DNA from: Agapetus fuscipes
Taxonomy: Eukaryota > Arthropoda > Insecta > Trichoptera > Glossosomatidae
Length of the DNA: 64,000 nucleotides
NCBI GenBank assembly: GCA_951799405.1
Contig: OX637334.1
Location: 5,642,001 to 5,706,000 of the forward strand
Direction: 5' to 3'
This document shows, one piece after another, positions 9,641-25,133 of this stretch; position 1 is the first letter of the stretch, and each line of letters opens with the position of its first letter. Made by a program: the position numbers and the translations under genes. The notes under the pieces are model-generated. The model worked only from the letters and a program-made list of their open reading frames with translations. It made no database searches and was not told where the DNA came from.

Positions 9641-10440
9641 TTAATCTAATTTGATTATGTCCTTGATGTGATATTTATTTACAACATTTGTGTCTATATC
9701 TTTTAATACATAGACTATCTTGCTAACTTTCTTTTCTATTCTGGCTTTGACAAATTTTGGAGCCAACTTTGTACAGAAGTATTTCCCTGCATTTGATTGT
9801 ATGAAATTTTTACGCCATACAATATCCCCTTGATCATAGACACGATTTGATCTACCTTTATTATAATAATTTGCATTTTTATTATATGCATCCCATAAAT
9901 TTTCTGTTACAATTTTGTATAATGTGTTTAATTCCTTCATTTTATCTTTATGCATATCTCTATATTTATCTAATTCTTCCTTTGATTCTATTTCATCATT
10001 TACTATTTCACCATGAATTTCACCATTTAGTACAATCTCCCTACCTCTTGCTAATACATTAGGTGTGTATCCTGTTGCTAAATTGACTGTATTATTTATT
10101 ATGCTTTGTACTGAATCTAAAAAAGTATCCCATTTTCTTTGTTCATTTTCAACAAAAATAGCTAATGTGTATCCTATTGTTCTATTATATGTCTCTAAAT
10201 TATTGCACATGGGAGTATATAAAGTTGTATAAAATATTTTCTGTACTCCATATGAGTACATAAAATCTTTAAATGCATTAGACTTTAAATTCTTTCCATT
10301 ATCTGTTATTATCGTTTGCGGTACTCCTTCTGTTAAAAATATTTTATTTTCTATTAATTTTACTATTTCTTCTGTAGTAGCTCTTCTTAAAGGAAATAAC
10401 CAACAATATTTGGTAAAAACATCTATTATTGATAATATAT
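9641..10440 (-). pseudogene. Integrase, C-terminal two thirds (5' part deleted)
   Basis: The frame is open from about 10440 to the stop at 9641. It starts inside the integrase core, just after where the first catalytic aspartate should be; the second aspartate is present in TDNG, and the glutamate in a NNLETYNRT block. The C-terminal part resembles the GPF/Y-type module of gypsy integrases (GDIVWRKNF onward). The zinc-binding HHCC domain and the first aspartate are absent, so the enzyme cannot work. No ATG is available at the true left edge. Confidence 0.85.
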
Positions 10441-10946
10441 GTATATTAAGGTGGAGCGTGAAATTTTACCTAATTCACTAATATTTTTGCTATTTGAATA
10501 TGTAATTTTACTTATTAAACTCGGTTCTAATTCAAATTTTATCCAAAAATCTATTCCAAAAATTAAGTCTTGTTGTAAACCTTGTAAAACATAAAAATCT
10601 ACATGTTTTATTTGATTGTCACATTTTACCTCTAAATTTATTTTACCAAGTATTTTTATATTTTTACCATTTGCTAACGAGATACTTTCATGGGTTTTTA
10701 TAATTTTGTAATTTCTTTGTAAAAAATAATCAAATTTTTCATTGATTGCAGAAATAGATGCACCTGAATCTAGTAAACCTGTAAAATTTTTGTTCTCAAT
10801 ATTTACTGTTAAAAATGGTCTTTTATCAAATTGTTTAGCAAAAATGAGTGGTGCAATTTGATAATTTTTATTAAAAATTTGAATGAAATTAAGCCAGCTC
10901 TTCATTTCTGATTTTTGTGTTTGTACTGAAGGCCGACTATCTACAA
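10426..10946 (-). CDS. Aspartic protease, read by frameshift from gag
   Basis: The retroelement protease cleaves the Gag-Pol precursor. The active site GLLDSGAS lies about 50 residues into the part starting at the internal Met (10905), and a later hydrophobic motif (DLIFGIDF) matches the second conserved block of retropepsins. The reading frame is entered by the -1 slip at 10947 and runs to a stop at 10426, at the point where the sequence jumps to integrase. It overlaps the start of the integrase frame. No reverse transcriptase follows, so the catalytic core of pol has been lost. Confidence 0.85.
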
Positions 10947-11879
10947 GTTTTTTGAATTACTATTGTATGTCGTATTTGTTCTGTTTTGTATATTTATATT
11001 TCTGTTCATTTTTGTTTTGTCTGTATAATCACTTTTTTTATTTTTAACAAAACAATCTTTTTGTACATGTCCTGTACGCTTACATGAGTAACAGATTACT
11101 GTGTGTTTTTTAAAATTTCCATTTTTTATAAAACAATTTCTTTCCACATGTCCTCTTTTATTACAAAAGTAGCATACTATATTATTTGTGAAACTTCTAC
11201 ATTTATTCTGTATGTAATCTAATTTTCTATTTTTAGTCCAACAATCTATTTCATCATGTCCTAATTTATTACAAAAATTGCATTTTTGCATTACATTTTT
11301 CTCTTCTGTGTCATTCATTACATTTAAATTTTTACATTCATTAAATTTTATAAATGATTCAAACTTGCTACATATTGTAGATAATTCCTCTGTATTTTTA
11401 ATTTTAGATGTTGTCAGTAAAGTTGCATATTTTTCTGACAATCCATGAATTATTATGTCCATAAGTTCATGCATTCTTTTATTTAATAAATTATTTTTTG
11501 ATTTTACCTTTAAAATATAAACAGATGCATTATCATGACCTTGTACCATATTTAAAATTTCTAACTTAAGATTCCTTTGAAAGTCATATTTTTCAAATTG
11601 TTGTAAGAATTTGGTTTTAAAAATTTTCCAATCAAATTCACAGTTAATTGCTCTGTACCAAGTTAACGGAAAATCTGTTAAAAATATAGGCATACACTCT
11701 ACCAAATAATCTAATTTTAATTTGTAGACTTTGGCTAATTCTTCTAACCTTATTATAAATTCATTTGGTTCACTTTCACCATTAAAAGATATTTTTAATT
11801 TGAGAGGATCAAAATTTATGGACTCCATTGTGTTACTTTCTAAATCCTTTTTATTATTTATTTTTTTAGATTTCGTCAT
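10941..11879 (-). CDS. gag: Gag with three CCHC zinc knuckles
   Basis: This 312-residue protein has a basic N-terminus, a capsid-like helical region (residues about 25-185, with PLTWYRAI and FLQQFEKYDF typical of gypsy Gag) and three zinc knuckles at C200-C213, C236-C249 and C263-C276, each C-X2-C-X4-H-X4-C. The ATG at 11879 is the first in frame and is followed by a lysine-rich start. The last codons hold the slippery sequence that leads into protease. Codon use is extremely A/T-rich, unlike the other gypsy element in the window, so the two belong to separate lineages. Confidence 0.9.
   Translation of the reverse strand: MTKSKKINNKKDLESNTMESINFDPLKLKISFNGESEPNEFIIRLEELAKVYKLKLDYLVECMPIFLTDFPLTWYRAINCEFDWKIFKTKFLQQFEKYDFQRNLKLEILNMVQGHDNASVYILKVKSKNNLLNKRMHELMDIIIHGLSEKYATLLTTSKIKNTEELSTICSKFESFIKFNECKNLNVMNDTEEKNVMQKCNFCNKLGHDEIDCWTKNRKLDYIQNKCRSFTNNIVCYFCNKRGHVERNCFIKNGNFKKHTVICYSCKRTGHVQKDCFVKNKKSDYTDKTKMNRNINIQNRTNTTYNSNSKNL
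10947..10953 (-). promoter_or_regulatory. -1 ribosomal frameshift site A AAA AAC
   Basis: Gag codons AAA AAC preceded by A form the classic retroviral heptamer, six bases before the gag TAG. Protease is in exactly the -1 frame, and the -1 frame stays open from the slip onward through the protease ORF. Confidence 0.8.
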
Positions 11880-15364: not shown

Positions 15365-15607
15365 TTAAGCATTCTATAATCAAGGATATATTCATTTAAA
15401 GCTCTCAGATGTATGCCCACAAACCAACAAGTGTAGTTCGCGCTTACAAATGCTGAATGTGTACTTACAAATAAAATCCAAACCTCAAATGAACATAAGC
15501 CCCACAACTTTTGCCGACCTTCCCTGAAACAGGGGTGACATTGGCAAAGTGAACCATTTTTTACAGTATGGGTGGTCAGCCTCATACCAACCTTTAAGTC
15601 AAGGAAT
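15365..15607 (-). repeat. LINE 3'-end/SINE repeat, full copy
   Basis: Very close to the copy at 4895, sharing the GCTCTCAGATGTATGCCCAC variant, so the two belong to one subfamily. Confidence 0.85.
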
Positions 15608-15935: not shown

Positions 15936-16484
15936 GAAAATTGTAAGCCTACGCAAAATATATTCAATTCATGCATACTGAAAAATATTTTTGAATCATT
16001 TGATTTCAAAGAAATAATTTTTATATTCTCAAATTGAGTATGTATTTTTCAAAGGCCATGGAATGAAAGTTTTTGAAAAAAAAGATATTAAATTATCTGA
16101 AAGGCGGAATTAAAAAAAAAATGAAAATTATGAAAAGATTTTATCGTGGTTGGAAGAGTCATATATTTTTGAAAGTGAAAAATACATCTATTTTTCTTTT
16201 TATTGAAAATTCGAAAAATTTGAAATGTCAAATCTCAAGGAATAAATTTTTAAAAGGAAGAAATGTAAAGCATTCAGACCCCAATTTATCTGGTTTCTTT
16301 AAGAAAATATTAATTGTTTTCTTTACAACTGCGTTTTGGTTTTTGAATGGGAGGGTACCAGACGTGTTTTTTTTGTATCAAAGTTATCACAACGTTGAAG
16401 TTCTTGATTCGATTAATTTTTCTCAGCCTAAAAAAGATTGCAAAAATCACCAATTTTGGTCTTTTTACCTGAGTAAGTAAATAC
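15936..16484. other. AT-rich; one long frame of doubtful meaning
   Basis: A plus-strand frame of 135 codons (16073-16480) is lysine- and phenylalanine-rich, as expected of chance frames in A-rich DNA. No motif supports it. It ends at the edge of the gypsy insertion. Confidence 0.4.
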
Positions 16485-16957
16485 TGTTACGAAATTAGGG
16501 TTCAATTGTCTTCAAATTAAAAATACACAGGTCTTCTTCAATAGTTATTTATTTTACACTGTTACAAAATTTATTTTCACACTACTTTCTCGATTATTCC
16601 ATTGGTTTCGGTTCACTGATCAGATGGCTTCGATGTGTTTGTTAGTCGCTATGATACTGGCCCGCTCTGCAGGCCATTCGCACCTTTATACTCTTCAGAG
16701 CAGTATGATCCAGAACTAAAGTCGCCAGACGGTTCCAGAGTAATTATTACTTCTCGACGCTTCACGTACTACCTAGAGATACAACCAAAATCCTACCTAC
16801 AAATGTAACACAGTATTCCTATAATTATAACAAATACCTACTTAGCCTAGAGAATTCTACACTTATACATAATTATCGATCTTACCTACCAATACTTTTG
16901 AGGATTCTTATAACTATAACTATCCATACTTATTTCAATATTTATATTTACATAACA
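16485..16957 (-). repeat. 3' LTR of the complete gypsy element
   Basis: This 473-bp repeat is the downstream LTR because the element reads on the minus strand. It begins TGTTACG and ends CATAACA on the plus strand, and reads as the same sequence as 23236-23708. Upstream flank ends in ATAC. Confidence 0.95.
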
Positions 16958-16975
16958 CTACCCCCCACCTAGACT
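16958..16975 (-). promoter_or_regulatory. Polypurine tract, overlapping the pol stop codon
   Basis: On the minus strand an AG-rich run with six consecutive G ends directly at the 3' LTR, as expected for the plus-strand primer. It is also the last codons of pol: the final glycines and the TAG stop lie in this tract, leaving no 3' untranslated space. Confidence 0.8.
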
Positions 16976-19900
16976 GTTTCGTCCCGGAACAGTCTTGACT
17001 CTGTGTAGGTAGGGGCATGCTGATCCACGTCGACACCCTGTGGTCAGGAAGAAGTGGCAGTCCACGGATTTCTCCCCACTGGCTCTCGGCTGCGCTTGCT
17101 CGCAGCACACCATGACGCTGATGCCGACTCCCGAGAACACTGCTTCAATCATACTCCGGATTATCCGCCAGTCTCGATTAGCGCGGCCACCACCCATCTT
17201 CGGTATTGCCAGACGCGCCTGCTGATCCTCCAACATGTAGTCACGCAGCTCAACAAGGCCGTCCCACAATGCCTTGTAGTCCTCTTCCAGGTTGCTGGAA
17301 TCCGGGACAACCAGGCAGTATGCTTGTTGACGCCCCTTCGGTAGTCTCAGAGCTCTTCCTTGCGGGCTGCTCGAGGGTTGCGGTTCTCCGAATTTGTATC
17401 GGAAGACCCGTGCAATTCCTCTAGACATATCTAGATCTTCCGGTACACTGCATGCCAGTGTGTGGTCCCTAGTGACCTCAAATAAGTCCTTGTGGACTTC
17501 TGTGGTCACTCCATGGCGAAACTTCTGCCCTGCCTTCGCGTTCTCCCAAAACGTCTCAAAGGCTGGTGATCTTTCGGATGCGACGCACTGTCGTACTTTT
17601 TGGGCTGGTTGGTCATCATTATCGCCTAGGTATGGTGAGAGGCGATTGTAGTGCACGACCCTTGGTTTTCCGTTTGGTCTCTTTTTTATGCGGTAGACCA
17701 CATCGTTGATGCGCTCCAAGATCTCGTACGGCCCGTCCCAGGAACGCTGAAGTTTCGGACAGTATCCTTGGCGCCTCTTGGGGTCAAAAAGCCACACCCA
17801 GTCACCAGCTTTGTACCCCATGCTGTCAGCTCTGGTGTCATAGCGCTCCTTCATTTGATCGCTGGCTTCCCCGATGTTCAGGTGGACCTGATCATGGATG
17901 TCATCCAGCCTCCTGCGAAGGTCTGTCACATAGTCTTCTCCGGCTAGGTCTTCACCTGGTTTGCAGCCAAATTTGAGATCACAAGGAAGTCGCATTTCTC
18001 GCCCAAACAGTATGCTGCTGGGAGTCTTCTTCGTCGTTTCCTGAACAGCCGACCGGTAAGCCAATAAGAACAAAGGCAGATGTCGGTCCCAGTCCCGCTG
18101 ATGGCTGGACACTACTTTGGCTAAGTACCTCCCCACGGTACGGTTCATCCTTTCCACCATTCCATCAGACTGTGGATGTAGCGCAGTGGTCCTGGTCTTG
18201 TAGATCCCTAGCCGCTCACACATTTGCTGGAAGATAGCAGCTTCAAAGTTCCTTCCCTGATCAGAATGTAATTCCAGGGGTACGCCAAACCTGCTGATAA
18301 ATTCGGTAACTAGAACTTCAGTCACGGTTACGGCCTCTTGGTTAGGGATTGAGTAAGCTTCCACCCACTTGCTGAAGTAATCCATCACCACCATGATGTA
18401 CTTGTTACCCTTCTCAGTTGTAGGAAATGGGCCAGCTATGTCGATGGCAATTCTTTCAAAGGGGCTGCCAACATTGTACTGACGCATTGGTGCTCGCCTT
18501 TTCCTTTGCGGTCCATTGGCCGTTGCACAGGTTACACATTTTCGACACCAATCTTTGACGTCTTCGCTGCAGTTGATCCAGTAAAATCGCTCTTTCACTT
18601 TCTCCAGCGTCTTCTTAACGCCTAGATGTCCTCCAGAAGTTCTTCCATGCAGCAGTCCAAGGATTTCCGGTACTCGGCTCCTCGGAACGAGGGTTTGCTT
18701 TCTTCTAAGTGTGCCGTCTTCCTTCTCGATCTTTCGTTTCAGGAACCCTCCTTCTATCACTATGGATCCCCATTGAGCCCAATAAGCCTTGACAGTTGGT
18801 GATAAGGGGGCGAGTTTTTCCCAGGTTGGCCTTTCTCCTTCTCGCGCCCATTCCATCACATACTTCAAGTCCGGATCATTCAGTTGGTCTTGCGCCAATT
18901 TTTCATCTTGCCAGTCCTCATCTTCGGTGGTCGTCCTTTGGACAATTGCTACTTTGTCCTCCATCTTGCTGCAATGTTTGCAGTCACTGGCGCATGGTCG
19001 TCTGGATAATGCATCCGCATTTCGATGAAGCGTGCCAGGTCTATGTTCGGAGTCATAATCATACTCCTGGAGCCTTTCAATCCATCTAGCCACTTGCCCT
19101 TCTGGGTTTTTGAATTTCAGAAGCCAAACCAGTGCAGCATGATCAGTCCGTAGTGTGAATTTTCTCCCGTACAAGTATTTGCGGAAGTGTTCCACTGATT
19201 TTATCACGGCAAGAAGCTCTCGTCTGGTCACGCAATAATTTCGTTCTGGCTTGGAAAGCACTTTACTGAAGTAACCCAGAACAGTCTCATGCCCATCCTG
19301 TATTTGGGAAAGGACGCCTCCTATCCCCACATTACTAGCGTCGGTATCCAGGATGAACTTTCCATCTTTTCGTGGGTAGCTCAAGATGGGGGCACTTGTT
19401 AATCTTCCCTTAAGCTCTTCAAATGCTTGTGCGCAGGAATCACTCCAATGGAAGCGAGTGTTTTCTTCCGTAAGCTTGGTGAGCGGTTTTGCAATGTCCG
19501 CAAATCTTGGCACAAACCTCCTGTAATAAGTGCACAGCCCCAGGAAACTCCTAGTTTCATGTTTGTCCTTCAGCACGGGCCAGTCTCTTACTGCCTTGAT
19601 TTTGGCAGGGTCAACTTCAACTCCACGTTGAGAAACTATGTGTCCCAGGTAATTTACTTGTTTCTTGAACAGGTTACACTTTTTCGGGTTGAGCTTCAGT
19701 CCAGCGTCTTGTAGTCGCCCGAAAACTTGCTCCAGATTTCTCAACTGATGGTTGAAGTCCTTTCCCAGGATGATTATGTCATCCAAGTATACCAGGCAGG
19801 TTTCCCATGATAGTCCTCGCAGCACATTCTCCATCAGCCTTTCAAACGTGGCGGGGGCATTGCATAAGCCAAATGGCATCACGGTGAACTGCCAAAGTCC

Positions 19901-21220
19901 AGATCCAGTCGAGAATGCAGTTTTCTCCTTATCTTTGGCATCCAATTCAACTTGCCAGTAGCCACTTTTCAGGTCCAATGTGGAAAAAATGGTGCATCCT
20001 GCCAATGTGTCCAAGGTGTCGTCAATCCTTGGCAGAGGGTAACTATCCTTTTTCGTAACATCGTTGAGCAGTCTGTAGTCCACACAAAATCTCGTGGTAC
20101 CATCCTTCTTTTTCACCAGTACCACCGGGGATGTCCAAGGGCTACTTGATGGTTCTATGATGCCATCCTTGCTCATGTCTTTGATGATCTTGTCAGCTTC
20201 TTCCCGCTTTGCAAAGGGTAGTCTTCTTGGAGCCTGTTTTATTGGTCTCGCTTCTCCGGTGTCTATGCTATGTCGCACTACCTTGGTTCTTCCCAGACGG
20301 CCATTAGAGTCCTCGAAAATGTTCTGGTAGCGGCAGATCAAACTCCTCACTCTCCGTTTGTTTTCCTCGGTTAGACCTTGGGAAGCGTCGTGGACCAGGG
20401 CTTCCAATTGTGTTGACAATTTGTTTCCTTCGCATGACATGTTTGTCATCTGTTGCACAATGGAAGTTATCCTCTCACATCTGCCCAAAACAAAACCTTC
20501 ATTCATTTTAACTGGGTAGCTGTTCACATTCATGATCTTGACAGGAATGGTCTCCTTTGCGCGAATCACTGTTCTTGCCACCATGACTCCTTTGTTAACA
20601 TTGTCCATGTTCTCCGGTTCTATCATACAGATTTGGTCATTTGTACTACTGGAATCCAGGCGGGCACTCACTATCATCTCGGATCGCCCCTTCACTTCGG
20701 TATTCTTGGCTAGGATAACACGTGCAGCCAGTTCTTTCCGTCTTTGCAGGATGACTTCTTCATTTCCAATTTTAATGGACCCTTTCTTTAAATTTAAACT
20801 GCACCCAAATCTGTCCAGTATGTCCATTCCCAATATAACGTCTTCTTCAATGTTGGCCACCAACGTCCGATGATCAAAAGTGGTGCTGCCAATTTGGAAG
20901 GTGGCAATCGTCTCCCCATACACCTGTGCTGACTCTCCCGTGGCGGTGTGCAGAGACCACTTTGTTGGTGCAATCTGCTTACCTCGTGCCACTATGTCGC
21001 GTCTCAGAATTGTCCTGGTTGCTCCCGTGTCCACCAGTAGTTCACGAGTTACTCCATCTATTATGCCATTGATAAAAATGCTGCTGGCTTTTCCTCTCAC
21101 GGTTGCGACAGTAGCAGCAGATTTCAGGGCCTCTCCAGCGTGGGTCAACGGTTGCCCCTTCCCATTAACCCTTTCTAGTTTTCCGCAGCCTGTTTTCTGG
21201 GTTTCTGAGGCTTGGGACAC
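16958..21220 (-). CDS. pol: Pol polyprotein: protease, RT, RNase H, integrase, macro-like domain, CCCH finger
   Basis: This open frame of 1420 codons lies in the -1 frame relative to gag and overlaps its end. The first codon given is GTG, and a stop lies just upstream, so expression must be by frameshift from gag rather than its own ATG. Protease: LLVDTGAT at 61-68 and GMDIL at 131-135. Reverse transcriptase: about 345-525 with YLDD at 479-482 region. RNase H: DTDAS at 625-629 with E668 and D693. Integrase: HH around 858-865, CxxC at 895-898, catalytic D927, D987 and E1023, then a GPY-type module ending near 1195. Beyond this the usual family ends, but here about 220 residues follow: a macro-domain-like segment (about 1242-1375) and a CCCH finger (1388-1405). 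No frameshift or stop is seen. The strongest nearest relatives by motif are the 412/mdg1-like gypsy elements; this placement is inference. Confidence 0.95.
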   Translation of the reverse strand: MSQASETQKTGCGKLERVNGKGQPLTHAGEALKSAATVATVRGKASSIFINGIIDGVTRELLVDTGATRTILRRDIVARGKQIAPTKWSLHTATGESAQVYGETIATFQIGSTTFDHRTLVANIEEDVILGMDILDRFGCSLNLKKGSIKIGNEEVILQRRKELAARVILAKNTEVKGRSEMIVSARLDSSSTNDQICMIEPENMDNVNKGVMVARTVIRAKETIPVKIMNVNSYPVKMNEGFVLGRCERITSIVQQMTNMSCEGNKLSTQLEALVHDASQGLTEENKRRVRSLICRYQNIFEDSNGRLGRTKVVRHSIDTGEARPIKQAPRRLPFAKREEADKIIKDMSKDGIIEPSSSPWTSPVVLVKKKDGTTRFCVDYRLLNDVTKKDSYPLPRIDDTLDTLAGCTIFSTLDLKSGYWQVELDAKDKEKTAFSTGSGLWQFTVMPFGLCNAPATFERLMENVLRGLSWETCLVYLDDIIILGKDFNHQLRNLEQVFGRLQDAGLKLNPKKCNLFKKQVNYLGHIVSQRGVEVDPAKIKAVRDWPVLKDKHETRSFLGLCTYYRRFVPRFADIAKPLTKLTEENTRFHWSDSCAQAFEELKGRLTSAPILSYPRKDGKFILDTDASNVGIGGVLSQIQDGHETVLGYFSKVLSKPERNYCVTRRELLAVIKSVEHFRKYLYGRKFTLRTDHAALVWLLKFKNPEGQVARWIERLQEYDYDSEHRPGTLHRNADALSRRPCASDCKHCSKMEDKVAIVQRTTTEDEDWQDEKLAQDQLNDPDLKYVMEWAREGERPTWEKLAPLSPTVKAYWAQWGSIVIEGGFLKRKIEKEDGTLRRKQTLVPRSRVPEILGLLHGRTSGGHLGVKKTLEKVKERFYWINCSEDVKDWCRKCVTCATANGPQRKRRAPMRQYNVGSPFERIAIDIAGPFPTTEKGNKYIMVVMDYFSKWVEAYSIPNQEAVTVTEVLVTEFISRFGVPLELHSDQGRNFEAAIFQQMCERLGIYKTRTTALHPQSDGMVERMNRTVGRYLAKVVSSHQRDWDRHLPLFLLAYRSAVQETTKKTPSSILFGREMRLPCDLKFGCKPGEDLAGEDYVTDLRRRLDDIHDQVHLNIGEASDQMKERYDTRADSMGYKAGDWVWLFDPKRRQGYCPKLQRSWDGPYEILERINDVVYRIKKRPNGKPRVVHYNRLSPYLGDNDDQPAQKVRQCVASERSPAFETFWENAKAGQKFRHGVTTEVHKDLFEVTRDHTLACSVPEDLDMSRGIARVFRYKFGEPQPSSSPQGRALRLPKGRQQAYCLVVPDSSNLEEDYKALWDGLVELRDYMLEDQQARLAIPKMGGGRANRDWRIIRSMIEAVFSGVGISVMVCCEQAQPRASGEKSVDCHFFLTTGCRRGSACPYLHRVKTVPGRNSLGGG
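17006..17062 (-). other. CCCH zinc finger at the Pol C-terminus
   Basis: Pol residues 1388-1406 hold cysteines and a histidine spaced C-X7-C-X5-C-X3-H, with the TGxCRRGxxCPYLH context typical of RNA-binding CCCH fingers. It lies 15 residues before the stop. It is separate from the Gag CCHC knuckle. Confidence 0.8.
17096..17500 (-). other. Macro-domain-like module in the Pol C-terminus
   Basis: Pol residues about 1242-1375 follow the order of motifs of the TARG1/OARD1 macro domain: KDLF (1244), a MSRGIARVFRYKFG segment (1265-1278), a hydrophobic strand near 1300-1305, a helix of about 25 residues, AIPKMGGG (1338-1345), W1351, and a final helix and strand (RSMIEAVFSG, ISVMV). In TARG1 the catalytic residues are K84 and D125. 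Aligned by eye these positions are P1306 and A1347 here, so hydrolysis is unlikely while ADP-ribose binding remains possible. The fold assignment rests on motif order and spacing recognised by eye and should be tested by profile comparison. Confidence 0.7.
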
Positions 21221-22551
21221 TTGGTGCTAAGGTGGCCCAGCTGTCCGCAGTTCCAGCAGCGTGGGTCTCGTCTTCGAGGTCTCAGACGTTCCAGCACTTT
21301 TTCAATTAGCTCCTCGGTTGTAGGTAGCTTGACCTCCTCTGCCTCGACTGCACGAACCCTGGCGTGGCCCCTGATGGACTGTTTGACAGCCTCAAACTCG
21401 AGAGCTTGGCTGAGCGCCTCGTTCAAAGCCTTGGGATGGGCCAGTTTTACGGCTTGTTGCGTCTCCCATTCCCGCAATCCATTTAGGAACTTGTCCACTG
21501 CCAAGCTCTCACAGATGTCGTCGGAGGCTGTCGGGTAAGCGTCTCGTACCAGGCGGGCGATGTCCATTTCAAACTCCTGGAGGCTCTCGTTGGGCTTCTG
21601 CACCCTTGTGTTCAGCTGCGACTTGTACAGCTGCTCCAGGCACTTGTGGCCATAGCGCATATCCAAGCGCTGCTTCAGCTGCCCAAAGTCACCACGGTTG
21701 TCCAGGGGTATGGCCTGCAGAACCCTGAGAGCGTCTCCTCGGAGCGACAGGCTGAGAACCGAAGCCTTCTTCTGCTGGCTCCAGGCTCCCATCATGGCAG
21801 CCGTCTCAAAGAGGGTCAAGTATTCCTCCCACGACGTCTTCCCGTCGAAGGTTGGGAGGTTGTGCTTGGCTAGGGAAGGGTCATCATCCCCTCTTGTGAT
21901 CCTGGTTGGAGTTGAGCATCCCTGGTCGGTCTCGTCGTGAAGGCCTTTGGGGGATATTCTGGTGGACTCCATCTGGCCCTTGTCGGTCAGCTCGGCACGC
22001 AGATGTACCTCCAGATTTGACATCCGAGTCTCCATTTCCCCCTTCAGGGCTGTCATCTTCTCCTCCATTTCTCCCTTCAGGGTTGTGAGATTCTCGCTCA
22101 TCTTCTCTTTCATGTTGGCGAGGTCTTCCTTCATGGTGGAGAGGTCTTCCTGCAGAGCCTTGGCGTTTTCAGCCATCTCCACTTTCAGGTCCGACAGGTT
22201 CTCCTGCAGGGTCTTGGCGTTGTCAGCCATCTTCTCCTCCAGGGTCTTGGCATTGTCAGCCATCTTCTCCTCCAGCCCGGTCAGGTCCTCCTTCACGGTC
22301 TTGGCGTTGTCAGCCATCTCAGTCTTCAGTCCTGTCAGGTTACTGTTGATGCTGATATTTAGCTCGTCCAAGGCGCGGTCCCCTCCAGACGCCATGACAA
22401 AATATGCCGGGTCTTCGCCTGACTGTTCCAAGGCCTCTATGAGGCGTGCTTGTAAGGCTGCCTTTCCTCCTGAGGTCTCCAGGTCCCTCTCCAGAAGCTC
22501 ATTTTTAAGCTCAGTGACTTTGAGGTCCTTGATGTTCACTTTGGTTGCCAT
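21175..22551 (-). CDS. gag: Gag polyprotein with N-terminal SAP-like motif and coiled coil
   Basis: This 458-residue protein is the structural capsid precursor of the retrotransposon. Residues 7-42 match the SAP pattern (leucine-spaced helix, SGGK turn, second helix ending RLIEAL), a DNA and chromatin binding fold. Residues about 62-190 form a long heptad-rich coiled coil with repeated MADNAKT-type units that look internally duplicated. Residues about 228-410 resemble the usual Ty3/gypsy Gag capsid region (LPTFDGKTSW onward). A CCHC zinc knuckle lies at C432-C445 (CWNCGQLGHLSTKC) in a basic tail. The ATG at 22551 is the first in the frame after the leader and begins the SAP motif directly. 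The gene ends at TAG inside the overlap with pol. Gag is known to bind RNA through CCHC; a SAP in Gag is not standard and suggests, by inference, chromatin contact. Confidence 0.93.
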   Translation of the reverse strand: MATKVNIKDLKVTELKNELLERDLETSGGKAALQARLIEALEQSGEDPAYFVMASGGDRALDELNISINSNLTGLKTEMADNAKTVKEDLTGLEEKMADNAKTLEEKMADNAKTLQENLSDLKVEMAENAKALQEDLSTMKEDLANMKEKMSENLTTLKGEMEEKMTALKGEMETRMSNLEVHLRAELTDKGQMESTRISPKGLHDETDQGCSTPTRITRGDDDPSLAKHNLPTFDGKTSWEEYLTLFETAAMMGAWSQQKKASVLSLSLRGDALRVLQAIPLDNRGDFGQLKQRLDMRYGHKCLEQLYKSQLNTRVQKPNESLQEFEMDIARLVRDAYPTASDDICESLAVDKFLNGLREWETQQAVKLAHPKALNEALSQALEFEAVKQSIRGHARVRAVEAEEVKLPTTEELIEKVLERLRPRRRDPRCWNCGQLGHLSTKCPKPQKPRKQAAEN

Positions 22552-23218: not shown

Positions 23219-23233
23219 CCGCACCTGACGCCA
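23219..23233 (-). promoter_or_regulatory. Primer binding site of the complete gypsy element
   Basis: Two bases inside the 5' LTR the minus strand reads TGGCGTCAGGTGCGG, which starts with the TGG that pairs with a tRNA CCA end. It resembles the Leu class of primer sites, but I cannot assign the tRNA with certainty. Confidence 0.75.
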
Positions 23234-23235
23234 AT

Positions 23236-23708
23236 TGTTACGAAATTAGGGTTCAATTGTCTTCAAATTAAAAATACACAGGTCTTCTTCAATAGTTATT
23301 TATTTTACACTGTTACAAAATTTATTTTCACACTACTTTCTCGATTATTCCATTGGTTTCGGTTCACTGATCAGATGGCTTCGATGTGTTTGTTAGTCGC
23401 TATGATACTGGCCCGCTCTGCAGGCCATTCGCACCTTTATACTCTTCAGAGCAGTATGATCCAGAACTAAAGTCGCCAGACGGTTCCAGAGTAATTATTA
23501 CTTCTCGACGCTTCACGTACTACCTAGAGATACAACCAAAATCCTACCTACAAATGTAACACAGTATTCCTATAATTATAACAAATACCTACTTAGCCTA
23601 GAGAATTCTACACTTATACATAATTATCGATCTTACCTACCAATACTTTTGAGGATTCTTATAACTATAACTATCCATACTTATTTCAATATTTATATTT
23701 ACATAACA
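23236..23708 (-). repeat. 5' LTR of the complete gypsy element
   Basis: Upstream LTR for minus-strand transcription, 473 bp, identical by eye to the other LTR, followed on the plus strand by the ATAC target duplication. I did not identify its promoter or polyadenylation signals with certainty. Confidence 0.95.
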
Positions 23709-23806
23709 ATACGTTATTTATACGCCAATCAAAAAACTAAAATTAATATTAAGATGATTTAGTTTGTGAGCTCTGTTATGTGTAAATCACTTTGGCTGGA
23801 TGAATT

Positions 23807-24885: not shown

Positions 24886-25133
24886 AATCTAATCTAAGCT
24901 GCAAAGATATATATCATTTAAGATTTATATTAAATGCATTCCCACAAGCAGACATGTTTAATTTCGCGCTAACACATGCCGCATGTGGACCTACAATATA
25001 AAAACCCAATCTCAAATGAACATAAGCCCTGCAACTCTTGCCGTCCTTCCCTGAAACAGGGGTGACATTGGCAAAGTGAACCATTTTTTACAGTATGGGT
25101 GGTCAGCCGCATACCAACCTATAAGTCAAGGAG
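24886..25133 (-). repeat. LINE 3'-end/SINE repeat, full copy
   Basis: Reverse copy with the TCTAATCTAATCTAAGC tail and the AAGTCAAGGAG head. Confidence 0.88.

Follow-up and report, generated by a model that had tools for sequence, protein, structure and literature searches.

In the stretch of Agapetus fuscipes DNA analysed here (64 000 nucleotides of contig OX637334.1; hereafter the window), a minus-strand Ty3/gypsy LTR retrotransposon, delimited by LTR comparison, open reading frames and Pfam, has an intact Pol that contains a TARG1-type macro domain, as a sequence-only reading had proposed; the PDB sequence search, the profile search and the predicted fold agree on this. It is one of a Ty3/gypsy family, detected both here and in several insects, whose Pol has a macro domain of this type at its C-terminus, usually together with a CCCH zinc finger. 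The element is Ty3/gypsy by architecture, with a putatively TARG1-derived domain that lacks the catalytic residues in the window and has them in the family.

The order of parts (LTRs with a short target site duplication, gag, then protease, reverse transcriptase, RNase H and integrase; Table 1) places the element in Ty3/gypsy, and Ty3 itself (7q5b) likewise has LTRs, gag and this order; the integrase of relative P0131 is also similar to Ty3 integrase (4e-7). The element is bounded by a 4-bp duplication (ATAC, 16481-16484 and 23709-23712) which, together with the identical LTR pair, suggests a young insertion. The gag and pol frames differ and overlap by 46 nucleotides. The pol stop directly abuts the 3′ LTR and tract GGTGGGGGGTAG doubles as coding sequence for the final Pol codons and the stop, so there is no space for an env ORF after pol, the mark of an errantivirus. 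Pol domains were assigned by Pfam on separate pieces of the ORF rather than on its full length at once; the first part of the reverse transcriptase had no Pfam match in the piece where it must lie (20000..21220), while the integrase was matched on 17681-18601, with the start of its zinc-binding part in 18602-18907 and an upper bound (18685) estimated from the H2C2 profile. Whereas Pol ends with the integrase in ordinary Ty3/gypsy members, here it has some 180 extra residues carrying the macro domain and the finger.

Table 1. Features of the retrotransposon, in window coordinates.
Feature	Position	Strand	Evidence
5′ LTR, 473 bp	23236..23708	-	LTR comparison
3′ LTR, 473 bp	16485..16957	-	0 mismatches to the other LTR
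Presumed primer-binding site, TGGCGTCAGGTGCGG	23219..23233	-	Direct reading beside 5′ LTR
Presumed polypurine tract, GGTGGGGGGTAG	16958..16969	-	Adjoins 3′ LTR; label inferred
gag ORF, 458 aa: Retrotrans_gag, CCHC knuckle	21175..22551	-	ORF list, Pfam
SAP domain, Gag N-terminus, residues 7-42	22426..22533	-	PF02037, 33.6 bits (cut-off 23.9)
pol ORF, 1420 aa: protease, RT, RNase H, integrase, macro domain, CCCH finger	16958..21220	-	
Piece with aspartic protease	20000..21220	-	Pfam
Piece with C-terminal RT part and RNase H	18908..19999	-	Pfam
Integrase and linker: zinc-binding part, rve core, Tf2-1-like SH3, p58 C-terminal part	17510..18685	-	Pfam
TARG1/OARD1-type macro domain, tail residues 58-194 (Pol 1238-1374)	17099..17509	-	PDB sequence search, profile search, predicted fold
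CCCH zinc finger CX7CX5CX3H, tail residues 208-226	17003..17059	-	PF00642, 21.4 bits (cut-off 20.5)
TARG1 K84 equivalent, Pro, Pol 1306	17303..17305	-	Alignment
TARG1 D125 equivalent, Ala, Pol 1347	17180..17182	-	Alignment

Sequence homology to TARG1 was found for the window domain in both the PDB sequence search and the profile search, and likewise for relative P0131. The predicted structure is a macro fold with TARG1 as its top structural match, and is well predicted, though the model leans on the alignment. Pfam Macro (PF01661) gave no match to the window tail at E ≤ 1. Among eight relatives, six matched this profile at E ≤ 0.01 and only P0162 exceeded the curated cut-off; Pfam Macro is insensitive as a test for these tails. 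The macrodomain of bacterial DarG (the DarTG antitoxin) matched the window domain more poorly than TARG1 did. Alphavirus and rubella virus macrodomains likewise have a macro fold inside a viral polyprotein, but these are RNA viruses and identity in the fold comparisons was 11-18%. The four ligands of the CCCH finger that follows were invariant in all 12 aligned sequences.

Residues K84 and D125, which we take to be the catalytic dyad of TARG1, are both lost in the window domain, the alignment placing P1306 and A1347 at these positions exactly as the sequence-only reading had by eye. Compared with the human ADP-ribose glycohydrolase TARG1/OARD1 (C6orf130), with which it shares macro fold and sequence homology, the window domain differs in these two substitutions (K84 to P, D125 to A), in further pocket losses, in its fusion to Pol and in the CCCH finger after it; it thus appears to be derived from TARG1 but without the catalytic residues of the enzyme. 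PMC5725667 describes TARG1 as stripping ADP-ribose from phosphorylated DNA ends, which the D125A mutant fails to do, and PMC8501950 describes reversal of thymidine ADP-ribosylation and rescue of DarT toxicity, with no rescue by K84A.

Out of 122 matching database proteins, the 118 whose tail matched over 200 amino acids or more were aligned with the window (119 rows); the K84 column held K in 116, P in two and a gap in one, and the D125 column D in 116, A in two and G in one, most of these tails being from the beetle Aromia moschata and hence non-independent. After clustering at 80%, K was present in 27 of 28 non-window representatives and D in 27 of 27, while P0167, outside this list of 28, has N at the D125 position. 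A wider set of 232 rows comprised 212 with both K and D, seven with both columns missing, six with K only, two with P/A and five single oddities, the P/A rows being those of the window and of P0003, a protein with 99% identity from an ENA contig of 996 bases. Because K and D are kept elsewhere in the family, the macro domain is at family level a putative eraser, and the window lineage alone is a candidate non-hydrolytic reader. The earlier proposal of a reader rather than a hydrolase therefore survives for the window lineage, where the dyad is lost, but does not extend to the wider family, which retains K/D and so looks like an eraser.

The family searches covered the best 120 of 149 matches and, with stand-alone macro proteins included, the best 120 of 189. 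Tail-bearing proteins among the database matches listed came from Aromia, Molorchus, Exocentrus, Callosobruchus, Leptinotarsa, Gonioctena, Brassicogethes, Pyrocoelia, Holotrichia, Acanthoscelides and the leafhopper Macrosteles, all but the last of which we take to be beetles. Protein P0131 holds integrase parts, the macro domain and the four finger ligands within a single frame, and the integrase-macro junction of the window recurs in beetle proteins. By eye, no CCCH finger was visible in Macrosteles P0164 and P0166 or in P0162, gene models that are possibly truncated; a separate gain or loss, or shortened gene models, may account for this, and these cases indicate that the finger is not a fixed component of the layout. 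A scan of viral contigs with alignment A2 found no relative.

An unrooted tree of 56 macro domains comprised 30 retroelement rows and 26 stand-alone rows, the latter being 25 proteins of 136-246 amino acids (a rotifer, bacteria and one Macrosteles protein among them) and the human TARG1 segment. The two sets were separated by a 100/99 branch, present in 99% of 200 bootstrap trees; the integrase domain is known for 19 of the 30 retroelement rows (window included) and the other 11 are pieces without integrase that were labelled after the first tree, so this split is partly circular. With 11 of 30 labels derived from the tree, one single capture would be its simplest reading.

The tail was also sought in the genome itself, where the element is present in many copies. 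All 150 scored places (from 1415 first-look candidates) were 100% identical to the tail query over 240 residues, and by hand count the open frame was exactly 1422 in 106 of them. With the integrase as query, 129 places were scored (from 2291 candidates), all at 99-100%. In a sample of 30 of these 129, window included, the tail was open in 27, carried a stop in two and a frameshift in one. The 29 copies without a frameshift showed 10 distinct synonymous and 24 distinct nonsynonymous tail changes relative to the window (stops included); one synonymous change was common to 28 copies and one nonsynonymous change to two, all others being private. This pattern is that of a star-like recent burst and speaks neither way on selection of the tail. 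Over 500 codons upstream, seven of eight copies were comparable (L003 was dropped, its upstream part being unalignable) and had nine synonymous and 12 nonsynonymous distinct changes. Eighteen copies (8 + 10) with synonymous changes only were set aside as evidence of purifying selection on the tail, that sample having been preselected for 100% tail identity.

Ten copies with both ends (from L011-L030) had LTR pairs 99.6-100% identical within the copy (one over only 143 bp), and their LTRs differ from those of the window by about 1-7%. The 720-nt tails of these ten, copies selected for tail identity, differ by 1-2 nucleotides, and in five of the ten the 3′ LTR is preceded by 44 additional bases. 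Exchange of LTRs between subfamilies is possible, to judge from these sequences. By hand count, open frames of 1834-1861 codons occur in five of the 150 copies, a length that would suit gag and pol joined in one frame.

The window lineage has changed more than its relatives. Its branch is the longest in the macro tree (1.66), and among 34 macro columns with at least 90% invariance across the family it has lost 10 (H77, C78, L100, P105, Y122, T125, K126, C164, D167 and L169), compared with zero to six lost by the 28 other representatives in a leave-one-out count. Five of these (H77, C78, T125, K126 and D167) are nearly universal among the 26 stand-alone rows, 25 or 26 of which have them. The loss of such TARG1-universal positions, and of L100, P105 and Y122, means that ADP-ribose binding or stability may also be gone from the window domain. 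Retained are 24 of the 34 columns, DLF, GIA, P160, G165 and W171 among them, and all six invariant finger columns; the domain most likely still folds as a macro domain. Identity of the window to four relatives was 0.72-0.75 in the integrase and 0.37-0.44 in the macro domain, against 0.75-0.85 and 0.50-0.61, respectively, among the relatives themselves. The linker preceding the macro domain was also somewhat less conserved (0.39-0.52 with the window; 0.48-0.62 among the relatives), so the divergence is not restricted to the macro domain. The alignments thus depict a lineage with an altered pocket, most invariant columns retained and a tail that as a unit evolved faster; divergence of the macro domain, and less so of the linker, beyond that of the integrase would fit relaxed constraint too.

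We regard it as fairly probable that a cellular TARG1-like gene was captured once into Pol, that the domain was initially an eraser and that in the window lineage it is now a binder or scaffold. Following the integrase, the CCCH finger would bind nucleic acid of the element, and the macro domain would strip ADP-ribose, a tag with roles in DNA repair and in defence against viruses, that host transferases attach to the ends of DNA or RNA or to proteins of the element while it is reverse-transcribed and integrated; element cDNA with exposed ends could profit from such a Pol-borne eraser. In the window lineage the likeliest present role would be to bind ADP-ribose without hydrolysing it, or simply to serve Pol as a scaffold, because catalytic and nearby pocket residues are lost while most invariant columns, the frame and the zinc ligands are kept. 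For this lineage we would rank a binder or scaffold first and a passenger second, and treat tethered integration as a bold reading; the rival readings overlap with this account and with one another.

The second-ranked reading, which we hold to be plausible though tentative, is that once catalysis was lost the macro domain became a decaying passenger, a tolerated linker between integrase and finger, and that the element spreads without its help. The long branch, the contrast between macro and integrase identity to the four relatives, the loss of universal pocket residues and the neutral look of the tail changes among copies all point this way. The 24 retained columns and the well-predicted fold (with a model that leans on the alignment) argue against it, as does the open tail in 27 of the 30 integrase-selected copies. 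When the macro stretch was left to drift to 60% identity in simulations, moreover, at least one stop arose in 951 of 1000 runs (none in 49; mean 2.9 stops), which suggests that the open frame was probably kept by selection, though retention of the finger could be the sole reason.

By analogy with viral macrodomains, the domain might instead blunt an ADP-ribose-based host defence, its hydrolase activity having become dispensable in this host; the predicted fold also matches protein stretches of Kadipiro virus and of insect-associated virga-like and negev-like viruses, and we consider such a counter-defence unlikely but worth weighing. Less likely still, an ADP-ribose reader, an idea of the sequence-only reading, would steer integration to PARP-marked chromatin, with the SAP domain of Gag as a second DNA contact. 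Retention of the DLF and loop-1 GIA motifs despite the lost catalytic residues would suit such a reader, as would the SAP domain itself, and PMC12632316 notes that viral macrodomains can lose catalytic function and that catalysis-dead chikungunya N24 mutants can retain binding. Pocket residues beyond the dyad are lost as well, however, and since the family taken together looks catalytic, reading probably came later than another, original role. The broader version, in which an insect family took an eraser of nucleic-acid ADP-ribose into Pol and one very successful lineage converted it to a reader, perhaps tethering the integration complex to PARP-marked DNA, is speculative and rather improbable; if true, it would be a natural eraser-to-reader switch within a mobile element. 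A chance resemblance or a misassembled chimera of pol and a host TARG1 gene, for which the blank Pfam Macro result might speak, was rejected as exceedingly improbable, given identical tails at all 150 scored genome places, the same junction in beetle proteins, the profile search match and the agreement of sequence and fold.

The earlier reading had known of no described lineage with this layout, and among the literature matches listed, which were open-licence papers only, none describes a Ty3/gypsy Pol with a macro domain. In general terms there is a precedent: PMC4977317, citing Basta et al. 2009, reports additional macro-domain ORFs in fish epsilon-like ERVs, which, compared by description only, share a macro domain in a retroelement but carry it as an additional ORF and are vertebrate retroviruses. 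The Ty3/gypsy Pol C-terminus is thereby a site of an accessory domain, likely of cellular origin, that Pfam Macro mostly misses. Should the family domain prove to be an active eraser, then insect hosts probably do exert a pressure on retroelements by ADP-ribosylating their nucleic acid or proteins, and these elements make that testable. Versions with and without K/D occur naturally side by side in the family, so that eraser and reader can be compared without design.

In Gag, a DNA-binding module (SAP) coexists with the ADP-ribose module in Pol of the same element, and SAP (PF02037) is also annotated in many Aromia proteins among the database matches listed. Internal direct repeats occur in gag at 22094-22319, with weak coiled-coil-like Pfam matches (e.g. 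Apolipoprotein), all below cut-off. Elsewhere in the window, a second, AT-rich retroelement stretch (9641-11879, minus strand) contains three ORFs: one is gag-like and bears CCHC knuckles, one encodes an aspartic protease, and the third (9641-10261) had no Pfam match. Finally, a 135-nt direct repeat (93%) lies on each side of the element, at 15471-15605 and 24998-25132, so that the element may sit inside another repeat.
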